Shown here: in pieces, positions 1,198-27,725 of the stretch | Position numbering within the stretch: the first letter of the stretch is position 1 | How the letters are laid out: the number at the start of each line of letters is the position of its first letter | From: Candidatus Hydrothermarchaeum profundi | Lineage (GTDB): Archaea; Hydrothermarchaeota; Hydrothermarchaeia; Hydrothermarchaeales; Hydrothermarchaeaceae | Direction of reading: 5' to 3' | Length of the DNA stretch: 64,000 nucleotides | NCBI GenBank assembly: GCA_002011125.2 | Contig: MTMF02000009.1 | Location: forward strand, 1,580,989-1,644,988 | The notes under the pieces: model-generated | What the model was told of the DNA's origin: nothing | What the model saw: the letters and a program-made list of their open reading frames with translations, nothing else | The model's database searches: none | Translations under genes and position numbers: made by a program

Positions 1198-1210
1198 GCC
1201 AAATCCCCTT

Positions 1211-2173: not shown

Positions 2174-2177
2174 AATC

Positions 2178-4792: not shown

Positions 4793-5485
4793 ATGACAAA
4801 AAACATAGCAGACCAGATAAAAGATTATGCACTTAAAAATGGGGCAAAACTAGTAGGTATAGCAGATTCAAGATTACTGGATAAAAAAGCCCCACGGGGG
4901 CATAGGCCACAGGACATCTTAAGTGATGCAAAATCTGTAATTGTGGTTGCAGTTCCACAACCTAGGGGGATTATAAGTGATTCATTGCCAACCGAATATA
5001 CTAGGTGCATATACACTGCCGAAATAAAATTAGAACTACTGACATTCGATATATCGAATATAATAGACGAAAAAGGTTACAAATCAATTCCTATACCTGT
5101 TAAAATGGAATATAGCATGGATGTTGAAAAATTAATGGGGGATATATCGCATAAACATGCTGCAGTATATGCTGGACTTGGGCAAATTGGAAAAAATTCT
5201 CTTTTAATAACACCAGAATACGGAAATAGGGTGTACTTGGCATCCATAGTAACCAATGCTCCCATGAGCTACGATATTCCATTTAAGAAACAATTTTGCG
5301 ATAAGGAATGCCAAAAATGTATAGAAGCTTGTCCAGTAAGGGCTATTCCAAAAGATGGAAGTGCCCTAATAGACAAAATGAAATGCTATCTGTATTGTAA
5401 AACTCAAAAGGAGCGCTATCCAATTACGAAGGGCCTATACTCCTGCAGAGAGTGCAGGAGGGTCTGCCCATTTTCAAAAGTTTAG
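4793..5485 (+). CDS. Short QueG-like double [4Fe-4S] protein
   Basis: This 230-residue protein resembles epoxyqueuosine reductase (QueG, COG1600): an N-terminal domain of about 150 residues followed by two ferredoxin-type cluster motifs. These are CDKECQKCIEACP near residues 168-180, and C-x3-C plus CRECRRVCP at the C-terminus. QueG binds cobalamin in the N-terminal domain and reduces it through the clusters, but this protein is much shorter than QueG (300-380 residues) and lacks its C-terminal HEAT repeats. Its position between a corrinoid methyltransferase and an MFS transporter suggests that it handles a corrinoid or reactivates an inactive Co(II) protein rather than modifying tRNA. That role is inference. 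Confidence 0.75.
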   Translation: MTKNIADQIKDYALKNGAKLVGIADSRLLDKKAPRGHRPQDILSDAKSVIVVAVPQPRGIISDSLPTEYTRCIYTAEIKLELLTFDISNIIDEKGYKSIPIPVKMEYSMDVEKLMGDISHKHAAVYAGLGQIGKNSLLITPEYGNRVYLASIVTNAPMSYDIPFKKQFCDKECQKCIEACPVRAIPKDGSALIDKMKCYLYCKTQKERYPITKGLYSCRECRRVCPFSKV

Positions 5486-5511: not shown

Positions 5512-6777
5512 ATGAAACTTGATCTAAAAGCAAAGCTAGCAGATCCGAAGAATAGAATCTTATTTTTATGTTGCAGTGGCATAGCATTCTCTTGGATTCC
5601 TTGGTTTAATTATTCCGCTGTGCTACCTATATTGAAGGAGGAGTTTAGTTTAACGAGCGCAGAAGCGGGAAAAATCATGGGAGGATTTCAATTAGGCTAC
5701 GTTTTAACTGTATTGATTACAGGAGTAATAGCTGACAAAATAGGAAAAAAACCAATCCTCGTGATTTCATCACTAATTACTGGGGTCGCTTCAATAGCTT
5801 TCGCCTTATTTGCTAAAGACTATTTCTCAGCTTTGATTTTGAGAGTTTTAATAGGTATGGGATGCGGAGGTGTATATGCTCCAGGGTTAGCGCTTCTTTC
5901 AAGTTGGTTTTCACCACGAGCTAGAGGAATGGCTTTCGGTGCATACACCGGGTCTTCTGTCTTTTCCTATGCTCTTGGATACTTCCTAACTGCACCTATT
6001 GCAGCTGTAGGGGGATGGCAGAAGGGCATATTATTTACATCCTATCCCGTTTTCATTGCTGTGTTATTTTTTGGTTTAGTAAAAGAACCGCTTACGTCAG
6101 ATTCTAGTCGAATAGAGGACTCACCACTCATGTCTGTTAAGAATATACAATTAGTCCCTCTAATCTTGATTACAATTGCTTACATGGCACACATGTGGGA
6201 ACAATTTGCTTTTTGGGGATGGGTAGGCCCTTATCTCTCAGCAGCAGGGGTTACCCATGGGATGGGCAAAGAGGAAGCCTTAACAATAGGCGGATTAATA
6301 GCTTCTATTACTATAATGATGGGTGTGTTTTCTCCATTTATAGGAGGTAAAATATCTGATAAATTAGGTCGAACTTTTACTGCGGCTTTTTTTTCTATAT
6401 TAAGCGCGATCTGTTCTTTTATTTTTGGCTGGCTAATTATAAAACCGTTTAATACAATCGTTGTCGCTAGCCTGATTTATGGATTTTTCGTAGTAGCGGA
6501 TTCTGCAATCTATAAAGCCGGTTTATCTGAAATGGTTCCTTCAACTTTTTTAACGAGCGCTCTAGCAATTCAATCAGCTGCCGGATTTGGAGCCGCAATA
6601 ATTTCTCCAGGTATATTTGGAATCATCCTAGATTTTACCAACACATCCTCAAGCATTCAAATCCCGTGGGGATGGGCGTTTGTGAGTTTAGGAATAGGTT
6701 CACTAATCAGCCCAATATGCCTAAGTATTCTGAGGTCTCACCCCCATAGTACTGCTATGACATCTGGAAAAAGATAG
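5512..6777 (+). CDS. Major facilitator superfamily transporter
   Basis: This 421-residue protein has about 12 hydrophobic spans in two halves. The MFS loop motif is visible between spans 2 and 3 (GVIADKIGKKP, about residues 75-85) and repeated in the second half (GGKISDKLGR). Such carriers move small organic solutes by H+ symport or uniport. It ends the uspA-methyltransferase-QueG-like operon, so it is a candidate importer for the methylated substrate or exporter of the demethylated product. MFS genes accompany demethoxylation genes in some archaea, which supports this context only loosely. No substrate motif can be read. Confidence 0.9.
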   Translation: MKLDLKAKLADPKNRILFLCCSGIAFSWIPWFNYSAVLPILKEEFSLTSAEAGKIMGGFQLGYVLTVLITGVIADKIGKKPILVISSLITGVASIAFALFAKDYFSALILRVLIGMGCGGVYAPGLALLSSWFSPRARGMAFGAYTGSSVFSYALGYFLTAPIAAVGGWQKGILFTSYPVFIAVLFFGLVKEPLTSDSSRIEDSPLMSVKNIQLVPLILITIAYMAHMWEQFAFWGWVGPYLSAAGVTHGMGKEEALTIGGLIASITIMMGVFSPFIGGKISDKLGRTFTAAFFSILSAICSFIFGWLIIKPFNTIVVASLIYGFFVVADSAIYKAGLSEMVPSTFLTSALAIQSAAGFGAAIISPGIFGIILDFTNTSSSIQIPWGWAFVSLGIGSLISPICLSILRSHPHSTAMTSGKR

Positions 6778-7015: not shown

Positions 7016-7687
7016 CTAATTTTTCTTTCCTTCTTCGATTCCCATTAACCTTTTAGCTACTATAACCGCATCAAAAGCATCCTCACCGTATCCATCTGCT
7101 CCAATCCTATCTGCATACTCTTGAGAGAGAGGGGCGCCGCCGATAAGTACTTTATATTTATCTCTCAGGCCTTTTTGTTTTAATAGTTCAATTAAATTCT
7201 TTGTTTGGTCCATTGTAGTGGTTAGCAGAGCACATGCTGCAATAATGTCAGCGTTTACTTTTTCAGCTTCTTCGATGAATTTTTCTAATGGAACATCAAT
7301 GCCTAAATCGTAAACCTCAAACCCCGCTGCCGTTAGAGCACTTTCTACCATATTCTTCCCAATATCATGGATATCATTTTGAACTGTACCAAAAACAATT
7401 CTTCCTAGCTTTTCACCTTTACCAAATTCTTTTGCAGCTTTCTCCTCGAGCTTAGGTTTCAGTACCTCAAACCCCGCCTTAAAAGCATGAGCACTTAAAA
7501 GCATTTCGGTGATAAAATATTCTCCTTTATTAAATTTCTCGCCTACGACTTGCATAGCATCGCTCATAGTTTTAACAATGACGTCCACGTCAATATTATC
7601 CTCTAGAGCTTTTTTAACCACGTCAGGTACTTCCGCTCTTTTACCTGCAATTACCAGCTCAGATAATTGTTTCAAAATTTCACTCAT
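7016..7687 (-). CDS. Corrinoid (B12-binding) methyl-carrier protein 1 (MtaC/MtbC/MtoC-like)
   Basis: This 223-residue protein has the two-domain layout of methyl-carrier corrinoid proteins: an N-terminal helical B12-binding cap (about 1-85), then a Rossmann-like B12 domain with DIHDIG (H107 is the lower cobalt ligand), then the TTT and GGAPLS loops that hold the nucleotide tail. It carries the methyl group between a substrate-specific methyltransferase and an acceptor methyltransferase. Its ATG lies inside the end of the upstream methyltransferase gene (8-nt overlap ATGAGTGA), which strongly suggests coupled synthesis and a functional pair. It is a paralogue of the protein at 16079. Confidence 0.94.
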   Translation of the reverse strand: MSEILKQLSELVIAGKRAEVPDVVKKALEDNIDVDVIVKTMSDAMQVVGEKFNKGEYFITEMLLSAHAFKAGFEVLKPKLEEKAAKEFGKGEKLGRIVFGTVQNDIHDIGKNMVESALTAAGFEVYDLGIDVPLEKFIEEAEKVNADIIAACALLTTTMDQTKNLIELLKQKGLRDKYKVLIGGAPLSQEYADRIGADGYGEDAFDAVIVAKRLMGIEEGKKN

Positions 7688-8771
7688 TAAGTATCACCTC
7701 ACCATCATCCTTGTATTTAGTGGATTTACCAATCTTGATTAAAGTCTGAATGTTTTCAAACGGTACTGTTGGAGGAACATCACACCCCGCAGAAAGTACG
7801 TAGCCTCCTCCTTTTGCCGCCTGTTCAATGCATTTTCTAGCATTTTTAGCTACATCTTCTGGAGTACCTGCATTTAATACATTAATCTGGTCAACATTTC
7901 CTCCAAGACATATTTTATCTCCGATTTCTCTCTTTGCCAAGCCTAAATTAAATTTTGGATCAACTAGGAAAAACTCTGCACCAGTTTCAGGTAATAGCTC
8001 ATACCTATTGTCTGGTTCCCAATTATTGCACATATGCAACCAAATAACAGAGCCTTCGGAATGATAATGGTCGACTAGTTTTTTCTGATATGGCAAAGCA
8101 AATTTTTGATAATTTAGTTTGGAGATTAAACCCGGAGCCGCCATTGGGTCTGTTATAACAACCATTTGCTCTTTTAAGACACCATCTTCAATAAGAGGGC
8201 GATAATATTCCATATGAAACTTAGTTGAAAACTCAAGGAGTTTATGAACTAACTCAGGATTTTCAGCTAAATTCATCATCAAATTTTCTATCCCCATGAA
8301 TTGTCCAGAATATGTAAAAGGGCCAAAAGCTGTCATACATACTAACACTTCATCTCCAACTCTATCTACGACTAACCGGGTAGCATCCCTAATCGCAGTA
8401 ACGATTCTGTCCTCATCTAGCGCGCCTGATTCTAGCTTTGCATAAAGCTGATTAATATCTTCCTCATTTTTTACCATAAACGGCGGAGCAATATCTGGTG
8501 GCGCACTTACTCCCATATATTTTAAATTTCCACCTAATGCAGCAACTGGAAAATTATTCATGCCTGAGCCGCAAAAAATAATATCCGATTGCACTTTCTC
8601 ATTAATTGAAATATATGTGTTTGCCATTTTTTCAGCACTTTCAGGCCATTTCTCCCATGAATCATTAGTGTTGTATACTATCCACATCCCCCCTCCAAAC
8701 CAGGGAGTAACCGGTAATCTTTCCGGAACGCCTAATTTAAAGGCTTCCAATACAACTTCTTTGGAATTCAT
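7680..8771 (-). CDS. UroD-family corrinoid methyltransferase 2
   Basis: The 363-residue reading from the ATG at 8771 is preferred to longer ones because an AGGAGGGA ribosome-binding site lies 6 nt upstream and the protein then begins MNSKEVVLEAF, as expected for the family. Zinc-site residues are H246 and C248 (HMC) and C330 (AGCD). The active-site entrance reads WFGGGMW near the N-terminus. It probably demethylates a small substrate and loads the corrinoid protein encoded by the overlapping next gene. It is the most diverged of the four UroD-family proteins here, so it may use a different substrate. The TATA/BRE at 8814-8830 drives it. Confidence 0.88.
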   Translation of the reverse strand: MNSKEVVLEAFKLGVPERLPVTPWFGGGMWIVYNTNDSWEKWPESAEKMANTYISINEKVQSDIIFCGSGMNNFPVAALGGNLKYMGVSAPPDIAPPFMVKNEEDINQLYAKLESGALDEDRIVTAIRDATRLVVDRVGDEVLVCMTAFGPFTYSGQFMGIENLMMNLAENPELVHKLLEFSTKFHMEYYRPLIEDGVLKEQMVVITDPMAAPGLISKLNYQKFALPYQKKLVDHYHSEGSVIWLHMCNNWEPDNRYELLPETGAEFFLVDPKFNLGLAKREIGDKICLGGNVDQINVLNAGTPEDVAKNARKCIEQAAKGGGYVLSAGCDVPPTVPFENIQTLIKIGKSTKYKDDGEVILNE

Positions 8772-8813
8772 ATTATTTCCCTCCTGTTTTTTAAAGTGTT
8801 TAAAAAACTTCGG

Positions 8814-8830
8814 TATATTTAAGTTTTTCG
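8814..8830 (-). promoter_or_regulatory. TATA box with BRE for methyltransferase 2/corrinoid operon
   Basis: The minus strand reads CGAAAAACTTAAATATA, about 45 nt before the ATG at 8771, placing the start near 8790 and the AGGAGGGA site inside a leader of about 19 nt. It is divergent from the promoter at 8904-8920, and both share the CGAAAAA element. Confidence 0.6.
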
Positions 8831-8903
8831 CAGTTTTTATCAATCAAAAAAAGCTTCAGTCCCGGTATACGATGATCATCTTTCAAAAAAACAGAATTGT
8901 CAT

Positions 8904-8958: not shown

Positions 8959-10278
8959 GTGACAAAAATTAAGAAGGTGAAACCAAAAGGGAAAACTCTA
9001 AAGGATGAAGAGATATATAAAGAATGGATTGAAGCCGATGACGACTCTATGGAAATTTCAAGAAGAGAATTTATAAAAAGTGTCGGATTTCTCGGAGGAA
9101 CCGTCTTTTTAGGCAGTTTTCTTTCCGGCTGTGTGACGGGTACTAAAGAAGCCGCTCCAGCTCCCGAAACTCAAGCTCCTGCTGCCGAAGAAACCCCTGC
9201 CGCTGAAAGGGCAATGGAATACAAAATTCGAGTAGGTTACCTGCCGGCTACCCACGATTCACTATTCTTTAGCGCAATGGAAGCAGGCTACTTTAAAGAA
9301 CTTGGCTTAGAAGTAGAGCCATATATATTTTATTCTGGGGGGAAGATGGGGGAAGCTACAGCAGCCGGAAAACTTGATGCGTTCATAGTTGGAAGCACAG
9401 CCCCGATGTACTATATAGCAAAAGGTGCTCCTATCAGCATCGTTGGAGGAGACGCATTTTATGGCTCAGGAATAGTTACTAAACCAGAGAATGTTAATAA
9501 GCTAAATAAAAAAGATATCAACATATTTAGAGGTAAAACCATAGCTACGGTAAGATTAGGTACTGCCGATGGGATATGGCGAGGATATCTGTGGGACGCA
9601 GGCATCCGAAGTTGGGATGGATCAGATATGGTTAACGGTATGAGGACTTTGGATCTTGGAAGTCCTGGAGACGTCGTAGCTGCAGTAAGGGGTAATAAAG
9701 CATTAGGTGGTCTTGTATGGGAGCCCTATGTCAGTCTAGCAGATTTAGAAGGATATCCTCCTTCTTTTTGGATCAAGTGGCTAGACCCTCATTCCTGCTG
9801 TAGAACTAGTATGAATGACGACTTTCTTAAAGCGAATCCAGAAGCAGCAGTAAGGTTCCAACAAGGGATAATGATGGCTGAAAGGGATTACTATCTAAAT
9901 CCAGAAAATTGGGACGAGTTTATTGAGCAATCTGACGTATGGCTGAGGATAGGCTACGACTCGCTTTATAGAGGATTATTCTACAGAGAGCCCGCATTAG
10001 ATGGAGACTTTAGACTTAGGCTTGGTAGTGGATTAGCAAAGCCGAATACGGATAGATTTGCAGATATAATCTACAAGTGGCTAGGATGGGACCAAACCAT
10101 AGTGTCAACAATAAAATCAAAGGTGAATCCACAGATCAATTTAGAAGCTGCCAAAAGACTAGGCCACTCTGAAGAGGAAGCGAAAAGGCTAACTAACTTG
10201 AACCCAGATACTAAGGCCTATATGAAAGCTGTCGGAATATCGGACGATGTCATAGAGAAGAGCTTTTTCGTTACATAA
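8959..10278 (+). CDS. Tat-exported lipoprotein, ABC solute-binding protein (NMT1/SsuA-like)
   Basis: This 439-residue protein has a twin-arginine motif SRREFIK at residues 34-40, a hydrophobic stretch and a lipobox LSGC at about 55-58. A Pro/Ala/Glu linker follows, then a periplasmic-binding fold (from about residue 77, IRVGYLPATHDSLFF) like receptors for sulfonates, nitrate or thiamine precursors. It is folded before export and lipid-anchored, where it would feed the importer at 1-3140. The start is a GTG at 8959 with only a G-run as ribosome-binding site. The n-region is unusually long (33 residues), and a downstream ATG at 9049 is the alternative. Ligand unknown. Confidence 0.87.
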   Translation: MTKIKKVKPKGKTLKDEEIYKEWIEADDDSMEISRREFIKSVGFLGGTVFLGSFLSGCVTGTKEAAPAPETQAPAAEETPAAERAMEYKIRVGYLPATHDSLFFSAMEAGYFKELGLEVEPYIFYSGGKMGEATAAGKLDAFIVGSTAPMYYIAKGAPISIVGGDAFYGSGIVTKPENVNKLNKKDINIFRGKTIATVRLGTADGIWRGYLWDAGIRSWDGSDMVNGMRTLDLGSPGDVVAAVRGNKALGGLVWEPYVSLADLEGYPPSFWIKWLDPHSCCRTSMNDDFLKANPEAAVRFQQGIMMAERDYYLNPENWDEFIEQSDVWLRIGYDSLYRGLFYREPALDGDFRLRLGSGLAKPNTDRFADIIYKWLGWDQTIVSTIKSKVNPQINLEAAKRLGHSEEEAKRLTNLNPDTKAYMKAVGISDDVIEKSFFVT

Positions 10279-11136: not shown

Positions 11137-11172
11137 AAATAATATTTTTAAGTAACTTGGAGAGAGATGAGT

Positions 11173-12087
11173 ATGCTGAGATTCGAAAGAGAACAAAGTA
11201 TTTTTAACATTGAGGGAATAAAGATAGGGGGGCAGCCAGGGGAAAATCCTGTTGTCCTAATTGGATCGATTTTTTACTCAGGACATAAAATTGTCAAAGA
11301 TCAAAAAAGAGGAGTATTTGATAAAGAGAAAGCCGAAGAGTTAATTCAACAGCAAGCAGAGATATCAGAGATAACAGGGGTGCCCTACATATTTGATGTT
11401 GTTGCTGAAAACCCAGAAGCAATGGAAAAATATGTGGATTTTATATCAGATACTACATCTGCCCCATTTATATTAGACGGGATCGATCCAGATACCAGGA
11501 TGAAAGCTTTAAACCATATAGTAGAAATTGGTGTAACCTCGAGGACTATCTACGGACAAATCAGTCCTACAACAAAACCAGATGAACTACAATCTATAAA
11601 AGACTCAGGGATAAAGAGTTCAATAGTATTCGCTTTCAGCTCATATGATCCTACAGCTGAAGGTAAAGTTGCATTATTAGAGAGTATAGACGGGAAAAAA
11701 GGATTATTGGAGATAGCTAAAGATGCGGGTATAAGTCAACCTTTGATTGACACAGCAGTTTTAGATATTTCTAGCGTTGCTGTAGCATCAGACGCGATAC
11801 AGATAGTTAAGCAGAAATATGGTCTTCCTTCTGGTTGCGCCCCAGCTAACGGTGTATCGATGTGGAAGAAATCAAAAATTTCTAAAGAATTTTATAGATC
11901 GTGTGAAGCCTCAGCTATGGTATTCACAAGATCTAGAGGAGCGGATTTCATTTTATATGGCCCTATAGAAGCAGCTAAGACTGTTTTTCCATCTATTGCA
12001 ACATACGAGGCTTTACTTGCATATACGTTGAAATGGGCGTATGGATTTATACCCAATAAAGACCATCCATTTTTCAAAATGTTTTGA
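11173..12087 (+). CDS. MtrH-family methyltransferase 1 (methyl-corrinoid:tetrahydropterin)
   Basis: This 304-residue protein opens with the MtrH signature (RFEREQ, then GGQPGENP and a VLIGSIFYSGHKIV-type block) and keeps the GCAPANG loop late in the barrel. MtrH, a subunit of the methanogen Mtr complex, transfers methyl groups between methyl-tetrahydromethanopterin and a corrinoid. Stand-alone homologues (MtoA/MtvA-like) do this with soluble corrinoid proteins. No other Mtr subunit is nearby, so the soluble role is likely. GGAGAG at 11159-11164 is 8 nt from the ATG at 11173, which favours that start over 11167. It differs clearly from the copy at 13170, suggesting a separate corrinoid partner. 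Confidence 0.87.
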   Translation: MLRFEREQSIFNIEGIKIGGQPGENPVVLIGSIFYSGHKIVKDQKRGVFDKEKAEELIQQQAEISEITGVPYIFDVVAENPEAMEKYVDFISDTTSAPFILDGIDPDTRMKALNHIVEIGVTSRTIYGQISPTTKPDELQSIKDSGIKSSIVFAFSSYDPTAEGKVALLESIDGKKGLLEIAKDAGISQPLIDTAVLDISSVAVASDAIQIVKQKYGLPSGCAPANGVSMWKKSKISKEFYRSCEASAMVFTRSRGADFILYGPIEAAKTVFPSIATYEALLAYTLKWAYGFIPNKDHPFFKMF

Positions 12088-13169: not shown

Positions 13170-14117
13170 TTACCGTTTTTTCAGCGCATCCACAAAATCG
13201 GAGTAAAGCTTATTTATTGGATGCGAAGGATCTTCAGGTAAAAACTCTGTTTCTTCGAACACAAAAGTTGAGAGCATTGAGTTTGCTGTTGCTATAGCCG
13301 GGAACATCCACTTAGAACTCTCAATAGGCCCATATAGGAGGAAGTCATTCCAGAAAATCGCAGATATCGCGTGTGCAGCTGAGTCTACCCCTGCAAAGCC
13401 CAGTTTACCCCACATGCCCTCTTGAGTCTTCTTGACAAGATCTGTACCATTAGATGGGGCGCATCCTACTGGAAATCCGAAGGTTTCCTTAACTAATTTA
13501 CTCCCTAGTAGCGAGAAAGGAGTTGACGGAATTGTCATAACGGAAGTATCCGCCAAGAAGTTCTTGAACCCTGCCTCCTTCGCCCAAGGTAAAAGCTTAT
13601 CTCGAATTAGTTCTATTCTGCCTTGAGGAGTTGGATTTTCCTGGTTGAATGCTACCATAAGAACATTTTTAAGACCAATATTCTTTAACTCAGATATTTC
13701 TCTTTCGGGATCTTTACTCCACGGCGCTATGCTGTTATATAGATGCCGATCTTGCAACCCCATCTCAGCTATAATCTTAGCAGCTCCAATTTTTGGTTCT
13801 ACCGTCCAAATATCCGTAGTAAAAGGCATGTCACTTACACTCGTAACGAACTCTATATACCGCCTTGCTTCCTCAGCACTATTAGCAACTAGATCAACCA
13901 TACATGGAAGCCCGGTTTGGTCTGAGAGTTCCTCCTGTTTGTTTATAAGCTCTTCTGCTTTTTTCTTGTCGAATTTTCCTTCTTTTCTACTTTCCAGTAT
14001 TTTATGCCCGTTGTAAAACATCGTTCCAATGAGCACCAAAGGATTTTCCCCTGGCTGCCCACCGATTTTAACATTTCCTATTTTGCATACTTTTTGCTCT
14101 TTTTCAAATCTAAACAT
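13170..14117 (-). CDS. MtrH-family methyltransferase 2 (MtoA/MtvA-like)
   Basis: This 315-residue MtrH homologue starts MFRFEKEQ, continues with GGQPGENPLVLIG, and has the GCAPSNG loop about residue 220. It should take the methyl group from the corrinoid protein encoded at 16079 and pass it to tetrahydromethanopterin. It ends a four-gene operon (methyltransferase, corrinoid protein, activase, MtrH) and follows the activase by 6 nt. In Mto/Mtv demethylation systems, as I recall them, the second methyltransferase has this role. It has a longer C-terminal tail (DPSHPINKLYSDF) than copy 1. Confidence 0.88.
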   Translation of the reverse strand: MFRFEKEQKVCKIGNVKIGGQPGENPLVLIGTMFYNGHKILESRKEGKFDKKKAEELINKQEELSDQTGLPCMVDLVANSAEEARRYIEFVTSVSDMPFTTDIWTVEPKIGAAKIIAEMGLQDRHLYNSIAPWSKDPEREISELKNIGLKNVLMVAFNQENPTPQGRIELIRDKLLPWAKEAGFKNFLADTSVMTIPSTPFSLLGSKLVKETFGFPVGCAPSNGTDLVKKTQEGMWGKLGFAGVDSAAHAISAIFWNDFLLYGPIESSKWMFPAIATANSMLSTFVFEETEFLPEDPSHPINKLYSDFVDALKKR

Positions 14118-14123
14118 GTAAAA

Positions 14124-16076
14124 TCACCTTGGTATCTTATCTAGGATATCTTGGATATGCGGGAATTTATCTTTCATATGCGGAAAGTGCATCGCCATCA
14201 TAAACTCTGTCTGGAAATCAGGATCTACTGTAAGCTCTATATATCTAATTCTTCTCGCTATTTTATCAGCTTCCTTTCTCTTTTGTTTATTTAATAGTGC
14301 TATCCTAGCACCGTCTCCCGCTGCATTCCCGATTGCCTTTACTTTTTTAAGATCACAATCTGGGAACATGCCTATTACCATACTAGCTTCTTTATCTATG
14401 TAACTTCCAAAGGCACCGGCTAATAAAACTCTGTCTACTTCATTTACTCCGTATCTCTTCATTAGAATCTTGCTACCTGTGTAAAGTGCTGCTTTTGCTA
14501 ACTGCATTGCTCTAACGTCGCCTAAGGTAACAGTGATATCTTTATTGATAGAAGTCTCTTCTTTCCAAGCAAGTACGTATTCTGGCTCCCCTTTTTCATT
14601 CTTCCGTATTCTCTTGGTTTTCTCTTGCAAATCCATGTTAAACGTGCCGTTCTTCTTTATTATGCCGGCTTTGAACATCTCAGCTATAACTTCTATTATA
14701 CCAGAGCCGCATATACCTCTCGCATCTATTTTCTCAATATGGGTATGCCAGTCTGCTTTTCCAATTACCTTGTACTTAGGCTCTAATGTCTCGGGATCTA
14801 TTCTAACTCTTTCTATTGCTCCTGGAGCAGCTCTCATACCAAATTTTATCTGTGCTCCCTCAAATGCGGGTCCAGTAGCGCATGATGTAGAAAATAGTTT
14901 TTCTTTGTTTCCTAGAACTATCTCACCATTTGTACCTATATCTATTATAAGTTGAAGAATATCCTTTTTATGAGGCTCTGTTGCAACTACGACACCCATG
15001 TTGTCAGCGCCTACGAAACCGGCCTCGTTAGGCAGTACATGTGCGTATGCCCCTGGAGCTGCCTTTAGACCCATATCCCTCGCCTTTACGTCTACTGAAT
15101 GATGAGTCGCAGGCGGGAATGGAGCAAGTCCTACATATTCAGGATTAATATCTAAGAATATATGGTGCATGCAAGTGTTTCCTACCAACACAAGCTCAAG
15201 GATGTCTTCAGGAGTAAGCCCAACTTCCTTAGTAACGTTTTGTATGATTTTGTTTAATCCCTTCTTGATTGCCTCGTTCATCTTTTTTAGTCCGTCTTCG
15301 TGAGTCATCGCATAAGTAATCCTAGCCATTACGTCCTCTCCATACGGTACTTGAGGATTCATCATAGAATCTACTGCAAGGACCTTGCCGGTATCTAAAT
15401 CTGTTAGATAGCCTACCACAGTAGTTGTACCCACATCTATAGCTAACCCAACTCTCTGCTCATGATATCCTGGTCGGATATTTACGATCTCCTTATCATA
15501 TCTTACATCTACTGTAACTTTCCACTCTCCTTCTCTGAGAACATCAGGCAGTCTCTTTAACACCATGTAATCAATAGTCAAATTCTTTAAATTGTGGATA
15601 TCGCTAAGTCCTGCCATCAGCCTCTCTAAGTCGCCCACCGGATCTTCAAGTGTTGGAGGGTTTAGTTCAAGATAATATTTTTTGATAACTGGATCTAGTC
15701 TTATTTTTATATCGGCAGCAGTCTTTCTGACAATCTGCCCTCCACCCCGGCTTTCCTCCGGTACAAAGACTAATAAGTCGCCATGAATCGTAGTATTACA
15801 GGATAGTCTATAGCCAGATTCGATTTCTTCTTTTGTGAGTTTTTTCTTTTCTTGTTCTAACAGAGGCGATGTATGTTTCATGCTGGATTCAATACCGAAT
15901 TTCTCGAAGAATCCCTCGTGAATCTGCACCTTGCATTTCCCACAAGTTAATTTACCACCGCATACCGACTCGATGTCAACTCCTAATTCTTGAGCGGCCT
16001 CTCTTATCGTTTTTCCGTCTTCTACCTCTCCGCGTCTGCCAGATGGTTGGAAAATGACCTTATGCATCTCCACCAT
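14124..16076 (-). CDS. Corrinoid activation protein: [2Fe-2S] ferredoxin fused to ASKHA ATPase (RACo/MtoD-like)
   Basis: This 650-residue protein begins with a plant-type [2Fe-2S] domain with C39, C45, C48 (CGGKLTCGKC) and a fourth cysteine near residue 92. A linker follows, then an actin-like ATPase core starting LAIDVGTTTVVG (about 210) with later DIGTNGE and AGAFG motifs. This is the architecture of bacterial-type reductive activators of corrinoid proteins (RACo, MtvD/MtoD-like), which use ATP and a low-potential electron to return Co(II) to Co(I). Archaeal RamA instead carries two [4Fe-4S] clusters, so this is the bacterial-type solution. It sits between the corrinoid protein gene and MtrH. 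GGAGAG precedes the ATG at 16076. Confidence 0.92.
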   Translation of the reverse strand: MVEMHKVIFQPSGRRGEVEDGKTIREAAQELGVDIESVCGGKLTCGKCKVQIHEGFFEKFGIESSMKHTSPLLEQEKKKLTKEEIESGYRLSCNTTIHGDLLVFVPEESRGGGQIVRKTAADIKIRLDPVIKKYYLELNPPTLEDPVGDLERLMAGLSDIHNLKNLTIDYMVLKRLPDVLREGEWKVTVDVRYDKEIVNIRPGYHEQRVGLAIDVGTTTVVGYLTDLDTGKVLAVDSMMNPQVPYGEDVMARITYAMTHEDGLKKMNEAIKKGLNKIIQNVTKEVGLTPEDILELVLVGNTCMHHIFLDINPEYVGLAPFPPATHHSVDVKARDMGLKAAPGAYAHVLPNEAGFVGADNMGVVVATEPHKKDILQLIIDIGTNGEIVLGNKEKLFSTSCATGPAFEGAQIKFGMRAAPGAIERVRIDPETLEPKYKVIGKADWHTHIEKIDARGICGSGIIEVIAEMFKAGIIKKNGTFNMDLQEKTKRIRKNEKGEPEYVLAWKEETSINKDITVTLGDVRAMQLAKAALYTGSKILMKRYGVNEVDRVLLAGAFGSYIDKEASMVIGMFPDCDLKKVKAIGNAAGDGARIALLNKQKRKEADKIARRIRYIELTVDPDFQTEFMMAMHFPHMKDKFPHIQDILDKIPR

Positions 16077-16078
16077 AC

Positions 16079-16762
16079 TTAGATCTCTCCTTTCTTTTTC
16101 ATTTCTCTCAAGGTTGATACCATCCTTAGGGCTTCTGAAAGAGCATTGCTGGCATCTGGAGCATATCCGTCTGCACCATACTTTTTGGCTATATCCTCGG
16201 ACAAGGGGGCTCCGCCAAGAAGGATCAAGACGTTTGGGTTCTTTTCTTTGATTTTTTCTACTACTTTTTTCATTCCAACCATAGTGGTTGTCATCATAGC
16301 AGACAGAGCGACAATATCAGAATCAGTTCTCATCTGCTCTTCTACGAATTTCTCTAATGGAACATCCTTTCCAAGGTCGTGGACTGTAAATCCAGCAGTT
16401 TCAAACATGAGCTTTACTATGTTCTTTCCTATGTCATGCACGTCTCCTTCTACCGTACCAATGACTACTTCTCCTTTTAACCTCTCTTTACTTTCGTCGA
16501 TCTTGACATGGGGTCTAAGTATATCCAATCCAGCGTAAAGGGCATCTGCGCACATTAGAACTTCTGGAACAAAGTACTCATTTTTCTCAAAGAGATCACC
16601 TACAACTTCCATTCCTGCAGCAAGTCCTTCGAAAATTCCTTCGTTGGCGTCAAACCCGTTTTTTATCCACTCTTCTGCGGCCTTTTTAACCCTCTCTTCA
16701 TCATAATTAATTACCCCCTCCTTGAGTTCCTCTAAAAGCTCCTTCTTTTTATCTTCACTCAT
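16079..16762 (-). CDS. Corrinoid methyl-carrier protein 2 (MtoC/MtvC-like)
   Basis: This 227-residue protein has an N-terminal helical cap followed by the B12 domain with DVHDIG (H109 ligates cobalt), the TTTMVGM loop and GGAPLS. It carries the methyl group from the upstream UroD-family enzyme to the MtrH protein of the same operon and is reactivated by the ASKHA protein encoded 3 nt downstream. It is a paralogue of the protein at 7016 and shares the GGAPLS and DVPLEKF blocks. Its placement inside a full operon makes it the best candidate hub for all UroD-family enzymes in the window. Confidence 0.94.
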   Translation of the reverse strand: MSEDKKKELLEELKEGVINYDEERVKKAAEEWIKNGFDANEGIFEGLAAGMEVVGDLFEKNEYFVPEVLMCADALYAGLDILRPHVKIDESKERLKGEVVIGTVEGDVHDIGKNIVKLMFETAGFTVHDLGKDVPLEKFVEEQMRTDSDIVALSAMMTTTMVGMKKVVEKIKEKNPNVLILLGGAPLSEDIAKKYGADGYAPDASNALSEALRMVSTLREMKKKGEI

Positions 16763-16774
16763 TTTACATCACTC

Positions 16775-17797
16775 CTATGAAAGTTTTCCATATTTTTCAG
16801 TAGCTTCAACAAGTGCTTTCATATTTTCTGGTGGAACGTCTGGCCAGATGTCACATCCAGGCCATATGCCGTTAACGCCTTTTTCAATCACATCTTTAAC
16901 CGCATTTTCTACATCTTGTACTGTGCCCTGGACTAGTACATTATAAGGATCTAAGTTACCTAACAATATCGTATCATCCCCTATCTTCTGTCTCGTTTGA
17001 ACTAAATCATTCTTTTGGTCAACACTTATTGCATCTGCGCCACATTCATTCATTAGCTCAACTATTGGATTTGTATTTCCACATATGTGAAGGATCCTTG
17101 GCGCTTCAATTCCTTCTATGGTCTTAATTAAATGAGGCTGAACTAGTGTTTTAAACATTCTGGGACTAATAACATCCGAAGGTGCTCCCATTTCTCTGAT
17201 CGTAATATAATCGGCACCTGCTTCTTTTTCTAGTTTGGCGACTCTGGTAGCAACGTCTACTAATCCAGTTAAAATCCTGTTTACATCATCTGGCCTTTTG
17301 AAAGATATTTTTAGAAGCTCATTAAGATCCATTATCTGCCCGGCTAGAGTGAATGGTCCAAGAACATATGATCCAATTGGAACTTCATCCCCAATATCAT
17401 CTTTAAGCAACCCTATGACCTCTTTAATCATTGGGAGTCTTCCTCTTTCTTCAAGATCATCAGGGATATTAACTTCATCTCCCGCTTTCACCAGCTTTGT
17501 TTTTATAGTTGGATAAAGTATATTGTCCTCAACATGAGCATACCAGTTGATTTCAGATCCCAAAGCCTCTGCTTCTAGACATAAGTCGAATGGCACTACT
17601 GCGCACTCGTACCCATATAGCTTATAAGTTGATGCCGCGAGCTTTGCCATATCTTCCGCGTTTTTATGCACTTCTGCAAACTTTATGTTGTACTTTTTCA
17701 TTCCCTCTACCGTGACGTTCCCCATTCCACTAAAACACGGTACCCGGTCTATTTTTTCCTTTTTAAGTAATCCTAAAACTCTTTCTTTTGGTGTCAT
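16775..17797 (-). CDS. UroD-family corrinoid methyltransferase 3, first structural gene of the four-part system
   Basis: The ATG at 17797 is chosen because GGGAGAG lies 8 nt upstream and the protein then begins MTPKERVLGLL, like the paralogue at 18548. The 340-residue product has zinc residues H237 and C239 (HICGN) and C315 (PGCD). It should demethylate the substrate and methylate the corrinoid protein encoded next, 12 nt downstream. Operon order methyltransferase-corrinoid-activase-MtrH parallels Mto/Mtv demethylation systems. An upstream ORF of 28 codons ends in ATGA overlap with this start, so translation may depend on it. Methoxylated aromatics are a plausible substrate, not a demonstrated one. 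Confidence 0.88.
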   Translation of the reverse strand: MTPKERVLGLLKKEKIDRVPCFSGMGNVTVEGMKKYNIKFAEVHKNAEDMAKLAASTYKLYGYECAVVPFDLCLEAEALGSEINWYAHVEDNILYPTIKTKLVKAGDEVNIPDDLEERGRLPMIKEVIGLLKDDIGDEVPIGSYVLGPFTLAGQIMDLNELLKISFKRPDDVNRILTGLVDVATRVAKLEKEAGADYITIREMGAPSDVISPRMFKTLVQPHLIKTIEGIEAPRILHICGNTNPIVELMNECGADAISVDQKNDLVQTRQKIGDDTILLGNLDPYNVLVQGTVQDVENAVKDVIEKGVNGIWPGCDIWPDVPPENMKALVEATEKYGKLS

Positions 17798-17880
17798 CTT
17801 ATTTCTCTCCCGATATTCAAAATTTTTCTTCTGCACCATGTGGAACATTTTTTCTTGCTATAGAATATAGAATTCCACAT
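17794..17880 (-). CDS. Possible 28-codon leader peptide upstream of methyltransferase operon
   Basis: An ORF from the ATG at 17880 has an excellent ribosome-binding site (AAGGAGGA, 6 nt away) and encodes 28 residues rich in Lys, Arg and aromatic residues, with two cysteines. Its TGA overlaps the methyltransferase ATG as ATGA. Its start codon lies inside one arm of an 11-bp inverted repeat. This arrangement fits a translated leader that controls downstream translation, though it may equally be a short real protein or a chance ORF. Confidence 0.5.
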   Translation of the reverse strand: MWNSIFYSKKKCSTWCRRKILNIGREIR

Positions 17881-18031: not shown

Positions 18032-18541
18032 ATGTTAAAGATAGATGAAAAAGATATAAAAATTTTAAGATGCATTGACGAAGTAGGAAACTCAAATATC
18101 GATGAAATTGCTAAGATGACCAATATCTCCCGCTCCACTATTCACTACAGACTGAAGAAATACCAAGAGTCAGGTATAATTAAGGGAACATTAGTGGATT
18201 TAGACCCTATAGAACTTGGATTAGATATAACCGCGATAATCCTCGTAAATGCCGTTTATGAGAAGATATATGCAGAAGAACTTGGAGAAAAGCTATCAAA
18301 AATACCGGGTGTTATATCTGTATATTATGTTCTTGGTGGAGTAGACTTTATACTTATTTGCAAAGCTATGGACCGAGAAGACCTCAAAAGAGTTTTAAGA
18401 GACATCAACTCAACGGAAGGTGTAATAAGGACAGGGACCCACTTTGTCGCTGCAACTATCAAAGAAGAGAAAAGGATCTTAGTTAATTACCCAGAAGAAA
18501 TGCTTAAAAAACTTTTTTATTCTAAGTTGAACAGGAAGTGA
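18032..18541 (+). CDS. Lrp/AsnC-family transcriptional regulator
   Basis: This 169-residue protein has an N-terminal winged helix (about 5-60, ISRSTIHYRLKKYQESGII as the recognition region) and a C-terminal RAM ligand-binding/oligomerisation domain (from about 70). It is divergent from the leader of the four-part operon and 6 nt upstream of methyltransferase 4, so it probably controls both directions. A TATA-like CATATAAAT lies about 50 nt upstream, and AAGGGA precedes the ATG. Lrp-type regulators usually sense amino acids or small metabolites. The ligand here is unknown. Confidence 0.9.
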   Translation: MLKIDEKDIKILRCIDEVGNSNIDEIAKMTNISRSTIHYRLKKYQESGIIKGTLVDLDPIELGLDITAIILVNAVYEKIYAEELGEKLSKIPGVISVYYVLGGVDFILICKAMDREDLKRVLRDINSTEGVIRTGTHFVAATIKEEKRILVNYPEEMLKKLFYSKLNRK

Positions 18542-18547: not shown

Positions 18548-19549
18548 ATGACACCCAAAGAGAGATTTATGAAGGCTCTGAACCTTCAAAAAGTTGACAG
18601 GCCACCTGTCACCTGCGCTAATCAAACCGCCACCCTTGATCAAATGGAGAAAATAGGGATTTACTGGCCAGAGGCGCACAAAGACCCTTTCAAAATGGCT
18701 AGATTAGCTGCGGCTGCGTGGGAACAATTAGGACTAGAAGGCGCTGGAGTCCCCTTTTGTCAAACAGTTGAAGCAGAAATTTTTGGATGCGAGATAAAAT
18801 GGGGCAGAAAGAAGACAGATATTCCTCAGGCACCCTCTAAGGGATACAAATCCCCTGATGGAGTAAAGGTTCCAGAAAACATTTTAGAGAAAGGCAGAAT
18901 CCCGGTTGTCCTGAAAGCTATTGAGCTACTTAGCGATAAATATGGAGGAGAAATCCCCATATATGGGCATGTGATAGGCCCTTTCTCCCTAGCAGCACAT
19001 TTAGCAGGAATGGAAAAGATCATGGTAACCGCATTCAAGAACCCAGATGTTGTTAACGAGTTCACTCATCTCGGGGTTGATACTATAGCTGAATACGGGA
19101 ATGCGATGTTTGATCATGGAGCAGATGTAGTAGTAATAGAGAATATGTTTGCTTCTGTAGATATAATGGGGCCCCAAGGGTATGCTAGAGTGGCTGCTCC
19201 ATATGATAAGGAATTGATAAACAAGTTGAAGGGACCTACAGTACTCCATGTATGTGGAAATGGGACTTTGATCATAGAAGACATGATAAAGACGGGTGCA
19301 ACATGTATAAGCATCGATAGTAGAACCGATGCTAAAAAATCGGTTATTGCTGCAAAGAGGAAGGCTGCAATAATGGGGAATGTGGATACCATGAAGGTTC
19401 TCACGTATGGAACACCTGAGGGAGTGAAAACTGATACTATGAGGGCAATCGAAGCAGGTATCGACATAGTTGCTCCGGGTTGCGCTATTTCTCCTTTAAC
19501 TCCTAACAAGAATCTAAAGGCGATGGTGGATACCGTTAAGATGTTATAA
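18548..19549 (+). CDS. UroD-family corrinoid methyltransferase 4
   Basis: This 333-residue protein, with zinc residues H234 and C236 (HVCGN) and C312 (PGCA), is closest in start and length to the enzyme at 16775 (both begin MTPKER). It follows the Lrp gene by 6 nt, and an AGGAAG site lies inside that gene's end. No corrinoid protein gene accompanies it, so it must use a shared one. Together with three paralogues it suggests that several methylated substrates feed common carriers, or that one copy passes methyl groups on to a thiol acceptor as MtaA does. Confidence 0.88.
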   Translation: MTPKERFMKALNLQKVDRPPVTCANQTATLDQMEKIGIYWPEAHKDPFKMARLAAAAWEQLGLEGAGVPFCQTVEAEIFGCEIKWGRKKTDIPQAPSKGYKSPDGVKVPENILEKGRIPVVLKAIELLSDKYGGEIPIYGHVIGPFSLAAHLAGMEKIMVTAFKNPDVVNEFTHLGVDTIAEYGNAMFDHGADVVVIENMFASVDIMGPQGYARVAAPYDKELINKLKGPTVLHVCGNGTLIIEDMIKTGATCISIDSRTDAKKSVIAAKRKAAIMGNVDTMKVLTYGTPEGVKTDTMRAIEAGIDIVAPGCAISPLTPNKNLKAMVDTVKML

Positions 19550-19617
19550 AAACCATTTCGCTACTTTTTTATATTAAACTCTCAATTAACCACAAGTAAG
19601 TTGACGTAGTGATAAAA

Positions 19618-21336
19618 ATGGCAAGAGTCAGAATTACCGATACTACCTTTAGAGATTCTCATCAATCCCTCCTCGCTACTAGAATGAGGATGAGGGATAT
19701 GATCCCCATCATCGAAAAAATGGACGAGGTAGGATTCTTCTCCTTGGAAGTGTGGGGTGGTGCAACTTTTGATTCATGTATACGATATCTGAATGAGGAT
19801 CCCTGGGAAAGGATAAGAACTTTCAAAAAATATATGAAAAAGACTCCTACCCAAATGCTCTTACGAGGACAGAATCTTGTGGGTTATAGACATTATCCTG
19901 ATGATATCGTAGAAAAATTTGTCGTAAAATCTGCAGAAAACGGAGTGGATATATTTAGGATTTTTGATGCACTCAACGATATAAGAAACATGGAATTTTC
20001 AATAAAGATAGCGAAAAGAGAAGAAGCACATGTTCAAGGAGCAATTTGTTATACAATTAGCCCTGTTCATACTATTGAGTCCTTTGTGGATATGGCGAGG
20101 AAGTTAGAAGAACTGGAATGCGACTCTCTGTGCATAAAAGATATGGCAGGATTGATCTCCCCAAAGGCATCTTACGATCTCATTAAAGCCTTAAAAAAAG
20201 AAATAAGTATACCTATAGACCTTCATTCCCATTGCACCTCTGGTATGGCTCCAATAAGCTATTATTCCGCATGCCAAGCCGGGGTGGATATACTAGATAC
20301 TGCTCTTTCACCTCTCGCTTGGGGGACCTCACAGCCTCCAACAGAGAGTATAATCGCCTCGCTCAAGGGGACTCCATATGACACCGGGCTTGATTTAGGT
20401 GCTTTAGAGGAGGCAACTGCTTATTTCAAGGAGATTCGGCAAAAATATTCTAGCTTAATAGATCCAATATCGGAACTCGTGGATATAAACGTCCTTCTTT
20501 ATCAGATTCCTGGAGGAATGTTATCTAACCTTATATCACAATTAAAAGAACAGAATGCTTTAGATAAATATGATGAGGTTTTGGAAGAAACGCCGAGAGT
20601 TAGAGCAGACCTCGGATACCCTCCCCTTGTCACTCCGAGTAGTCAGATAGTTGGTATTCAGGCTGTGATGAATGTAATACTTGGAGAGAGATACAAGGCG
20701 ATCACTAAAGAAGTTAAAGATTATGTGAAGGGTTTATACGGTAAACCTCCCGGGCAGATAAATGACAGTTTAAAGGCAAAGATCCTCGGAGATGAGGAAC
20801 CCATTGAGGTAAGGCCTGCTGACCTACTTGAGCCTCAGTATGAATTAATGAAGAGAGAGGCTGAAAAACTTGGTATTGTAAAGAAAGAGGAAGATATACT
20901 AACCTACGCATTATTTCCATCTATTGCCCCTAAGTTCTTAAAAGGGGAAATCCGAGAAGAACCGTTGAAACCTCCAGCAGAACAGGCTGCCTCTGAACAA
21001 GGAATACCCACAGAATTTAGAGTCGAAGTAGATGGAGAATCTTATTCAGTGAAAGTGGAGCCTATTGGAGGTTTTATGGATATCGCAGAAATTGAGAAAA
21101 AAAAGGTACCATCAAAGCCCTCAGAAGGAGCCGTAATTGCTCCAATGCAGGGCCTAGTTTTGAAGTTAAAGGTTAAAGTAGGTCAAACTGTTAAAAAAGG
21201 GGATGTCGTAGCTGTATTAGAAGCAATGAAGATGCAAAATGATGTCCATGCTCATAAGAGTGGTATCGTAGAAGAAATATTCGTTACAGAAGGATCGACG
21301 ATACCAGCTGGAACCGCGCTTATGGTGATAAAATAA
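19618..21336 (+). CDS. pycB: Pyruvate/oxaloacetate carboxylase subunit B (carboxyltransferase + biotin carrier)
   Basis: This 572-residue protein begins with the carboxyltransferase barrel (RITDTTFRDSHQSLLATRMR, with DxH-type metal ligands HSH later). It then has a PycB conserved region and ends with a biotinyl domain whose lysine lies in EAMKM, about 40 residues from the end. Together with PycA (21886) it makes the alpha4beta4 archaeal pyruvate carboxylase that converts pyruvate to oxaloacetate for biosynthesis. A Na+-pumping decarboxylase role would need membrane subunits, which are absent. The ATG at 19618 gives the family's usual N-terminus; a GTG nine bases earlier is less likely. Confidence 0.93.
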   Translation: MARVRITDTTFRDSHQSLLATRMRMRDMIPIIEKMDEVGFFSLEVWGGATFDSCIRYLNEDPWERIRTFKKYMKKTPTQMLLRGQNLVGYRHYPDDIVEKFVVKSAENGVDIFRIFDALNDIRNMEFSIKIAKREEAHVQGAICYTISPVHTIESFVDMARKLEELECDSLCIKDMAGLISPKASYDLIKALKKEISIPIDLHSHCTSGMAPISYYSACQAGVDILDTALSPLAWGTSQPPTESIIASLKGTPYDTGLDLGALEEATAYFKEIRQKYSSLIDPISELVDINVLLYQIPGGMLSNLISQLKEQNALDKYDEVLEETPRVRADLGYPPLVTPSSQIVGIQAVMNVILGERYKAITKEVKDYVKGLYGKPPGQINDSLKAKILGDEEPIEVRPADLLEPQYELMKREAEKLGIVKKEEDILTYALFPSIAPKFLKGEIREEPLKPPAEQAASEQGIPTEFRVEVDGESYSVKVEPIGGFMDIAEIEKKKVPSKPSEGAVIAPMQGLVLKLKVKVGQTVKKGDVVAVLEAMKMQNDVHAHKSGIVEEIFVTEGSTIPAGTALMVIK

Positions 21337-21367
21337 ATTCTAAAATATTTAGTGGGAGGTGGAAGCC

Positions 21368-21829
21368 ATGGTATTCCAAAAATTGCTGTCAGGTAAAGAT
21401 ACTGTCAAGTTTGTTGAGAATATAATTTATGAAAAAAAGCAGATCCAAGATGTAGGAGTTGATCTTACTGTAAATTCTATAAGCATACTTCAAGGTCCGG
21501 GTTCCGTCGACTTTGGCGGGAGTGAATTCAAGAGAGGTGAATTGAAAAAGTATCCTTTCTGGAAGCCTGAAGGAGAAAAGTATGGTTGGTGGCATCTTGG
21601 AGCTGGGCAATACATTGTGACATATAATGAAAAAATAAATATCCCTAAAGGATGGATAGGAGTACTCCAACCTCTAGACCGTATTATTGAGAACGAATGC
21701 TTCCATCCTACTTTAGTTATCTCTGGTACTAAGCACCCGCTTAATACTGTACTTAGCGTTGGAGCAGCAGGTATAAATATAAAACAAAACGCTAGGATTT
21801 CGAGGTTACTGCTTTTCAAAGTGGAATAA
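21368..21829 (+). CDS. dCTP deaminase/dUTPase-fold protein
   Basis: This 153-residue protein (ATG at 21368, preceded by GGGAGGTGG) resembles the trimeric dCTP deaminase/dUTPase family: a QDVGVDLTV strand, the [14 protein letters not shown] strand and a C-terminal [14 protein letters not shown] segment. The usual serine-rich nucleotide motif and the family's C-terminal tail are not recognisable, so it may be a diverged or non-catalytic member. It lies between the two pyruvate carboxylase genes on the same strand (31 nt after pycB, 56 nt before pycA), an odd place for a nucleotide enzyme. Confidence 0.6.
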
Positions 21830-21885
21830 TCCGAAGACTGAAAAAGAAATCTTTTTTTATATATGAACTAATTAAAAAAAATACT

Positions 21886-23379
21886 ATGTTTGATAAGGTT
21901 CTAGTAGCTAACAGAGGGGAAATAGCTATTCGTATAATGAGAGCATGCAGAGAGCTCGATATTAAAACAGTGGGAGTTTTCTCGGAAGCAGATAAATATT
22001 CTCTTCACGCTAAGTATGCAGACGAGGCGTATTTCATAGGCCCTTCCCCACCTAGCCAAAGCTATCTTAATATTGATACGATAATAGATGTAGCCCTTAA
22101 ATCAGGAGCTGAGGCAATCCATCCGGGATACGGCTTTCTCGCAGAAAACTGGAAGTTCGCTAAGGCATGTGAAGACGCTGGGATTAAGTTTATTGGCCCT
22201 AGCAGCACTGCAATAAAAAAAATGGGAGATAAAATTGAGGCAAGAAAAATAATGAAAAAGGCAGGCGTACCTATAGTTCCCGGATCAGATGACAAAATTG
22301 AAAATGCTGATGAAGTCTTAGAGATTGTTGAAGAAATTGGATTCCCCATCGTGTTAAAAGCTTCTGCAGGTGGAGGGGGAATTGGGATGAAAATAGTTAA
22401 AAGAGAGGAGGATCTTCAGCGGATTATTGATTCCACTAAATCTGTTTCGAAATCCGCGTTTGGGGATGGCACGCTCTTCGTAGAAAAATACCTACAAGAT
22501 CCCAGGCATATTGAATTTCAGATCCTTGCAGATGACAAAGGTAATACGATTCATATAAATGAGAGGGAGTGCACTATCCAGCGACGGCATCAAAAGCTTA
22601 TTGAAGAAACGCCGTCGCCAATCATGACCGAAGATTTAAGAAACGAGATTGGTGCATTAGCTGTTAAGGCGGCAAAATCTATCAACTACGAAAATGCAGG
22701 TACTGTTGAATTCATATACTCGGAGGGCAACTTTTATTTTTTAGAGATGAACACCCGGTTACAAGTTGAACATCCAATAACAGAGCATACAACAGGAATA
22801 GACCTCGTTAAAGAGCAGCTAAGGATAGCTGCCGGGGAAGGAATGAGTCAAACTCAAGATGAAGTGGTAATGCGGGGCCACGCAATGGAGTGCCGAATAA
22901 ACGCAGAGGATCCCTTAAATGACTTTACACCTTCCCCAGGAAAAATTACTAAATATCGATCTCCTGGTGGACCCGGTGTGAGAGTTGATTCTGGTGTTAG
23001 GATGGGATATACTATTTCACCTCACTATGACCCTATGATCTCCAAGCTCACAGTCTGGGGTAGGAATAGAGAGGAAGTCATAGCAAGGATGAAAAGGGCT
23101 TTAAGTGAATATATTATTGCAGGTGTAACAACTAATATACCATTTCATAAAGCTGTAATGGACAATGAGGCCTTCAGAAGAGGGAAAATAACAACTAACT
23201 TTATCGAAGAGCAGAATATAATAAAAGAGATACCTAAAGTAATAGAGGCCGATAGAGTCAGAGAAGCACGATTAGCTGATTTCTTCAGAGAAGATAGACG
23301 AGTAGTAGCAATATCTACTGCAGTAAGTTCCTATATGGAGATGGCCAAAAGAAAGCAACAGCCCAAAGGTGAAGGATAA
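21886..23379 (+). CDS. pycA: Pyruvate carboxylase subunit A (biotin carboxylase)
   Basis: This 497-residue biotin carboxylase shows the expected order: N-terminal domain ([20 protein letters not shown]), ATP-grasp with the glycine-rich loop [12 protein letters not shown] (about 160-171), the RRHQKLIEE block and the catalytic [10 protein letters not shown] signature about residue 288, then the C-terminal domain. It carboxylates the biotin on PycB with ATP and bicarbonate. Its C-terminal tail beyond residue 455 extends slightly past stand-alone AccC. Its genomic pairing with pycB makes pyruvate rather than acetyl-CoA the likely final acceptor. Confidence 0.94.
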
Positions 23380-26052: not shown

Positions 26053-26213
26053 ATATAGATTTACAACAATACTATTATAATATAAATTGTTCTATGAAGG
26101 GTTGGGATAATAGTTGTTCTATAAGGCATGAGGCTAAAATAAAAAAATGCAACCATAAATTTTAAATACAATTCCGGTGTAATTCCATGGCTGATTTAGA
26201 GGAGATATCCCTT

Positions 26214-27721: not shown

Positions 27722-27725
27722 TAAG

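Follow-up and report, generated by a model that had tools for sequence, protein, structure and literature searches.

What does a corrinoid-dependent methyl-transfer operon do in a deep-sea archaeon that lacks methyl-coenzyme M reductase (MCR) and so is unable to form methane? The question is raised by four adjacent genes in a 64,000-nt stretch of the Candidatus Hydrothermarchaeum profundi genome (the window; coordinates count from its position 1 unless marked C9, the genome contig). Coenzyme M (CoM) is seen as a marker of archaeal methane and alkane metabolism, with a known bacterial role in alkene use (PMC12068725). Carr et al. (2019) found mtrH without mcr in Hydrothermarchaeota, and another fate for methyl-CoM was suggested (PMC6775978). 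The most fitting description of the operon is a corrinoid methyl-transfer system of the thiol type, a variant of the soluble CoM methyltransferases that is tied to CoM biosynthesis in MCR-less organisms. We give a probability of roughly 0.5 to the more specific reading that it mediates soluble, CoM-linked methyl exchange (thiol - corrinoid - tetrahydromethanopterin (H4MPT)) without MCR. The four genes are:

16775-17848, minus strand: UroD1, a UroD-family zinc methyltransferase of the MtaA/CmuA type (PF01208, E 2e-75)
16079-16762, minus strand: CP1, a methyltransferase corrinoid protein with His109 as cobalt ligand (PF02607 and PF02310)
14124-16076, minus strand: RACo-type reductive activase with an N-terminal [2Fe-2S] domain and an ASKHA part (Fer2, RACo_linker, Raco_middle, RACo_C_ter)
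13170-14117, minus strand: MtrH1, a methylcorrinoid:tetrahydropterin methyltransferase (PF02007, E 2.5e-68; NF002142, 377 bits, above cut-off)

The genes are co-directional (13170-17848) and separated by 12, 2 and 6 bp. Pfam assigned all four, in agreement with an earlier note on this DNA that had read them as a UroD-family methyltransferase, a corrinoid protein, an activase and MtrH. The zinc ligands named there, H237, C239 and C315 as counted from Met18, are present and correspond to H254, C256 and C332 of the full frame. Met18 (position 17797) is the likely start of UroD1, also favoured by the alignment with orthologs. His109 of CP1 and the [2Fe-2S] cysteines C39, C45 and C48 of the activase were likewise found in place, together with a further Cys93. 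With Fer2 and three RACo domains, the activase is of the bacterial type, as proposed, and it is 55-64% identical to its counterparts in Archaeoglobi and Nitrospirota operons. CP1 narrowly missed the cut-off of TIGR02370 (203 bits, cut-off 215).

The earlier note had also assigned the operon to the Mto/Mtv demethoxylation systems. We used the Archaeoglobus fulgidus mto cluster as a yardstick; its order of corrinoid protein, MtoB, a gap for the MFS gene, MtrH and activase fits AF_0006-AF_0010 (PMC8359953). The composition does match in part, since Mto likewise unites a UroD-family methyltransferase, a corrinoid protein, an MtrH-type second methyltransferase (MT2) and a RACo-type activase in one cluster; Mtv is alike apart from the MtrH-type MT2, which is noted for Mto. 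However, UroD1 comes from another branch, is shorter and has an S-type zinc site. The His-Cys-Cys site is the mark of S- (or Se-) methyltransferases, and O-demethylases replace one or both cysteines (Kountz and Balskus, PMC10418091). The HxC...C site was kept in all four UroD-family proteins of the window, whereas A. fulgidus MtoB lacks it and has VLFEG and PGVDG in its place.

Two trees of the UroD family, with 73 and 65 sequences, grouped UroD1 with MtaA, MtbA and a second enzyme of the window, UroD2 (support 97/100 and 99/97, respectively). The UroD1 orthologs were monophyletic (100/100) and formed their own subclade within the CoM methyltransferase clade, while A. fulgidus MtoB, a protein of 417 amino acids that is ~23% identical to UroD1, stood on a separate long branch (100/100). 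On MtaA-type models UroD1 reached 266 bits (TIGR01463) and 293 bits (PRK06252), both above cut-off, in contrast to 34-53 bits for MtoB. Tree, zinc site and model scores thus contradict a kinship with the demethoxylation systems; the phylogeny suggested as a check in the earlier note placed UroD1 with the CoM methyltransferases at clade level, as a subfamily of its own. Structure modelling, suggested there as well, gave an AlphaFold2 model of UroD1 (pLDDT 88.8) whose nearest solved fold was MtaA (4ay8/4ay7, TM 0.89, rmsd 1.7), with the UroD decarboxylases well behind. No CdmB structure was among the fold matches listed for UroD1. CdmB belongs to the chloromethane system Cdm, which also combines a UroD-family methyltransferase (MTI), a corrinoid protein and a pterin methyltransferase (MTII); it is related to MtoB (31%) and zinc-free (PMC13222342). 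Because of its zinc site, its place in the CoM methyltransferase clade, its model scores and its MtaA fold, UroD1 is predicted to act most likely on sulfur or selenium rather than on methoxy oxygen.

UroD1 shares with MtaA and MtbA, the soluble CoM methyltransferases of methylotrophic methanogens, the zinc site, the fold (4AY7/4AY8), the clade and a corrinoid partner. It differs from them in being ~33% identical, in an operon that adds MtrH and a RACo activase, and in a host without MCR.

This last point was established by searching the families genome-wide in the host assembly, which is 97.65% complete. McrA gave no match in the whole genome, with two methanogens positive as controls, and neither did MtrA (PF04208), for which the controls were also positive; the absence of mcr, already noted for the window, thus extends to the genome. 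Mch and the acetyl-CoA synthase CdhC are encoded, in line with the earlier suggestion that methyl-H4MPT is usable in this host. At C9:1573232-1575594, some 5-8 kb upstream of the window, we found genes for cysteate synthase (495 bits) and ComDE sulfopyruvate decarboxylase (both subunit cut-offs passed), which both belong to the CoM pathway of the Methanosarcina type (PMC12068725). Between this pair and the window lie genes for an HdrD-like CCG protein and a cytochrome b, and the whole set spans 2-8 kb upstream. Being outside the window, a short way upstream, the CoM biosynthesis pair was beyond the view of the earlier note.

We scanned one genome per species for UroD1 and found relatives in 161 places; statements on taxa refer to the best 80 of these. 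The best 80 were 52-76% identical and came chiefly from Nitrospirota, with others in Hydrothermarchaeota, Archaeoglobi, Chloroflexota, Bacillota (Desulfofundulus and others) and Desulfobacterota/Syntrophaceae. At the majority of them, UroD1 is adjoined by the corrinoid protein, MtrH and RACo. UroD1 orthologs with 52-65% identity stand together with corrinoid protein, activase and MtrH in Nitrospirota, Archaeoglobi, Chloroflexota, Bacillota and Desulfobacterota. The Nitrospirota gene order begins with a member of the UroD_B family (see below), followed by an AhpD-like protein, MtrH, UroD1, the corrinoid protein, a QueG/RDH-like 4Fe-4S protein and RACo, and continues with a small protein, a DsrM-like cytochrome b, an HdrD-like CCG protein, a pyridoxal phosphate enzyme and a thiamine pyrophosphate enzyme. 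The last two were identified as cysteate synthase (TIGR03844, 474 bits, cut-off 325) and ComDE (alpha 174 bits, cut-off 148; beta 219 bits, cut-off 221.5). Among the Nitrospirota loci, 36 extended 4.5 kb or more past RACo, and in 31 of these both genes followed downstream in the same direction. The Nitrospirota operon is bordered by a histidine kinase and a sigma-54-type regulator, which suggests induction by an external substrate.

Co-occurrence of the operon with cysteate synthase was also found within the host's order (6/8 versus 2/15, Fisher p 0.006) and in one family of Archaeoglobi (5/7 versus 3/48, p 0.0003), where it should be noted that most Archaeoglobi homologs of cysteate synthase score below the curated cut-off. 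A literature search of open papers found no earlier description of a CoM-linked operon of this kind.

The earlier note had called the operon self-contained. This did not hold: besides the operon, the window's first 20 kb encodes another three proteins of the UroD family, a further corrinoid protein and a further MtrH, along with transport and regulatory genes:

18032-18541, plus strand: Lrp/AsnC regulator, divergent from the operon
18548-19549, plus strand: UroD2, second MtaA/MtbA-like methyltransferase, divergent from the operon (PRK06252, 369 bits)
7680-8843, minus strand: UroD_B, third UroD-family methyltransferase (PF01208; own clade, support 100/99)
7016-7687, minus strand: CP2, second corrinoid protein, overlapping UroD_B (best model MtgC-like, 220 bits)
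11167-12087, plus strand: MtrH2, second MtrH-family protein (PF02007; TIGR01114, 286 bits, above cut-off)
3746-4783, plus strand: UroD_A, fourth UroD-family methyltransferase (PRK06252, 302 bits, above cut-off)
4793-5485, plus strand: 4Fe-4S protein (PF13484), 24-36% to the QueG/RDH-like protein of the Nitrospirota operon
415-3140, minus strand: TauT/SsuT-type ABC transporter, ATPase and two permeases (best ATPase models of the taurine/SaoA/sulfonate type, below cut-offs)
8959-10278, plus strand: SsuA-like substrate-binding lipoprotein (TIGR01728, 50 bits, below cut-off)
5512-6777: MFS gene

The divergent pair of Lrp regulator and UroD2 is kept beside UroD1 in relatives from the host's order such as JdFR-16 and in Archaeoglobi of the Geoglobus type.

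How might these parts work together? CP1 would be the hub, held as Co(I) by the RACo activase, which would reset it after accidental oxidation. UroD1 would be the thiol arm: its His-Cys-Cys zinc is expected to bind sulfur as a thiolate or thioether, in all likelihood that of CoM or methyl-CoM, with the methyl group passing to or from CP1. MtrH1 would be the pterin arm, exchanging methyl groups between CP1 and H4MPT. The net reaction, methyl-CoM <-> methyl-H4MPT, would make the operon a membrane-free counterpart of the MtrA-H complex of methanogens (methyl-H4MPT:CoM methyltransferase). The two have this proposed reaction and an MtrH homolog in common, but a soluble, unrelated corrinoid protein and UroD1 stand in place of the membrane part, the genome has no MtrA, and ion coupling is absent. 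UroD2, UroD_A and UroD_B, with CP2, may be extra arms between corrinoid proteins and the thiol that load methyl groups from donors. A candidate feeder is an MttB-type trimethylamine methyltransferase encoded elsewhere in the genome, for which UroD2, UroD_A or UroD_B could be CoM-type second methyltransferases. Methyl-H4MPT might then be oxidized or passed into carbon monoxide dehydrogenase/acetyl-CoA synthase, the HdrD-like protein and cytochrome b might keep the thiol pool reduced, and the SsuA-like protein and the TauT/SsuT-type transporter could bring CoM or a different sulfonate into the cell. In M. acetivorans, ssuA and ssuC rise upon CoM starvation and were interpreted as CoM transporters (PMC12068725).

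On a broader scale, CoM may be a methyl carrier in MCR-free energy metabolism of archaea (Hydrothermarchaeota, some Archaeoglobi) and bacteria (Nitrospirota), with the UroD1-corrinoid-MtrH relay replacing Mtr and linked to the CoM biosynthesis pair of archaeal type and to an HdrD/DsrM-like complex. We hold this extension tentatively, at somewhat less than even odds.

Several observations weigh against CoM-linked methyl exchange. UroD1 lies below the equivalog cut-offs of both MtaA (276/400 bits) and MtbA (208/600 bits). The last CoM step, MMP16, was not found in the host genome or in the Nitrospirota tested, and we infer CoM as the thiol; the MMP16 matches listed for the host were ferredoxin-domain noise, and ComA, for the ComA route to CoM, was not found either. 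Sulfide and sulfoacetaldehyde can react non-enzymatically (PMC12068725). Cysteate synthase was not found in the tested genomes of Bacillota, Chloroflexota and Desulfobacterota that carry UroD1 operons; the thiol may therefore differ there or be imported. Both co-occurrence tests ignore shared ancestry. Finally, moving a methyl group from CoM to H4MPT costs ~30 kJ/mol, as established for Mtr, and there is no ion-gradient coupling for it among these genes. The thiol to pterin direction would need to be pulled by oxidation; the opposite direction is downhill, but would leave methyl-CoM without a known fate here.

There is an alternative that we regard as unlikely but serious: UroD1 may itself be the MT1, the enzyme that first demethylates a sulfur or selenium compound such as methanethiol, dimethyl sulfide, MMPA or methyl-selenol, whose methyl group would pass via CP1 to MtrH1 and H4MPT, with no direct part for CoM. 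A His-Cys-Cys zinc suits any soft sulfur or selenium substrate (PMC10418091), one MT1, one corrinoid protein, one MT2 and an activase are the usual layout, and in Bacillota, Chloroflexota and Desulfobacterota the core of UroD1, corrinoid protein, RACo and MtrH occurs without cysteate synthase. However, a demethylase of this kind would leave the CoM biosynthesis genes in the Nitrospirota operon and near the host's own operon unexplained, and UroD1 is closer to the CoM methyltransferases than to the sampled proteins of type 1 mlp clusters. These clusters (Kountz and Balskus 2023, PMC10418091) are alike in MtaA-like proteins, corrinoid protein, RACE activase, His-Cys-Cys site and non-methanogen hosts. 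They are without a pterin methyltransferase, whereas the window operon has MtrH1 and is linked to CoM biosynthesis, and UroD1 fell outside the three Mlps sampled (one type 1 mlp cluster only, with long branches). We did not read the operon itself as a type 1 mlp cluster, given MtrH1 as fourth gene and the placement of UroD1 outside the Mlps of the one cluster sampled. A better candidate lies at C9 ~1161531-1164347 (L047:7531-10347), where two MtaA-like proteins that group with type 1 mlp cluster proteins flank a corrinoid protein, possibly a methyl-selenium/sulfur cluster.

A second alternative, quite improbable in our view, runs the system reductively: methyl-H4MPT would methylate CoM or sulfide, and the methylated thiol would be a product, sink or signal. 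In its favour, transfer from pterin to thiol runs downhill (established for Mtr), a methyl-H4MPT branch is indicated by CdhC and Mch, and relatives carry HdrD-like and FrhB-like genes alongside the operon. Against it, the regulators flanking the Nitrospirota operon suggest induction by an outside substrate, and an enzyme that would use methyl-CoM in the absence of MCR is not known. The operon as an Mtr complex was discarded, MtrA not having been found in the host genome. As for the O-demethylation of methoxylated aromatics proposed in the earlier note, the same four functional parts in A. fulgidus MtoABCD (PMC8359953) and an MFS gene at 5512-6777, recalling the MFS transporters of A. fulgidus mto, cannot offset the branch, length, zinc site and scores of MtoB or an A. 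fulgidus mto activase that is only ~37% similar, when the window operon has 53-67% orthologs in other Archaeoglobi, and this reading is very improbable.

Relatives of the operon also differ in their surroundings. In JdFR-16-type relatives, an FrhB-like F420/iron-sulfur protein directly precedes UroD1 (L030:10709-12022, L032:3783-5090, L034:1863-3134); it is missing in the window. This 437-aa gene was considered as MT1 but encodes the FrhB-like iron-sulfur protein, not a methyltransferase, and the 518-aa gene after UroD2, considered likewise, encodes a GAF/PAS/DUF835 regulator. Four relatives of the order without UroD1 have MtrA-domain proteins in long frames of 303-413 aa (L198-L201). No genome of the order shares both MtrA and UroD1 (4 versus 8), a sample too small to count. 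In Chloroflexota (L117, L139), several divergent UroD-family proteins, each beside a CP1-like corrinoid protein, stand just before RACo-MtrH-UroD1; these could be primary demethylases feeding the UroD1 relay.

In the host genome, an SsuA-family protein without an obvious signal peptide at its start directly follows ComDE upstream of the window (L173:10316-11236), and a ~300-aa protein is found at the equivalent place in most relatives having cysteate synthase. The SsuA-family protein may contribute to the missing final step of CoM synthesis, or it may bind thiols or sulfonates. The MttB-family trimethylamine methyltransferase gene, at C9 ~1898189-1900400 (L203:10189-12400), directly follows a pyl-type corrinoid protein and contains a single in-frame TAG (SFVAGT*ADSKIP), likely making it a pyrrolysine gene in a Hydrothermarchaeota genome; 0/22 relatives have such a gene. 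Within the window, UroD2 is directly followed by pyruvate carboxylase-like subunits (OadA-like with a biotin domain, and biotin carboxylase; 19609-23379). Open reading frames read by eye indicate a respiratory island (26187-28883, 50889-57015, 60263-63963) with multiheme proteins, an NrfC/NrfD-like pair and cytochrome c biogenesis. The multiheme protein at 50889-52394 contains one stretch of ~100 residues (GEEERAAIHLKEYMCEDCH...CKTCHG) twice, identical by eye, which is a recent internal duplication.

For annotation, the locus calls for caution: because the zinc site separates S-type from demethoxylation clusters, not every cluster of UroD-family protein, corrinoid protein, MtrH and activase is a demethoxylation system. 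For the question of Carr et al. on the fate of methyl-CoM (PMC6775978), the operon offers a concrete, testable gene set. In many Nitrospirota, CoM synthesis genes belong to one operon with MtrH and a corrinoid methyltransferase of the thiol type; in an mcr-free archaeon these genes likewise lie close together. The methanogen cofactor CoM may thus serve a second pathway, and the CoM-linked gene set recurs in many uncultured bacteria.

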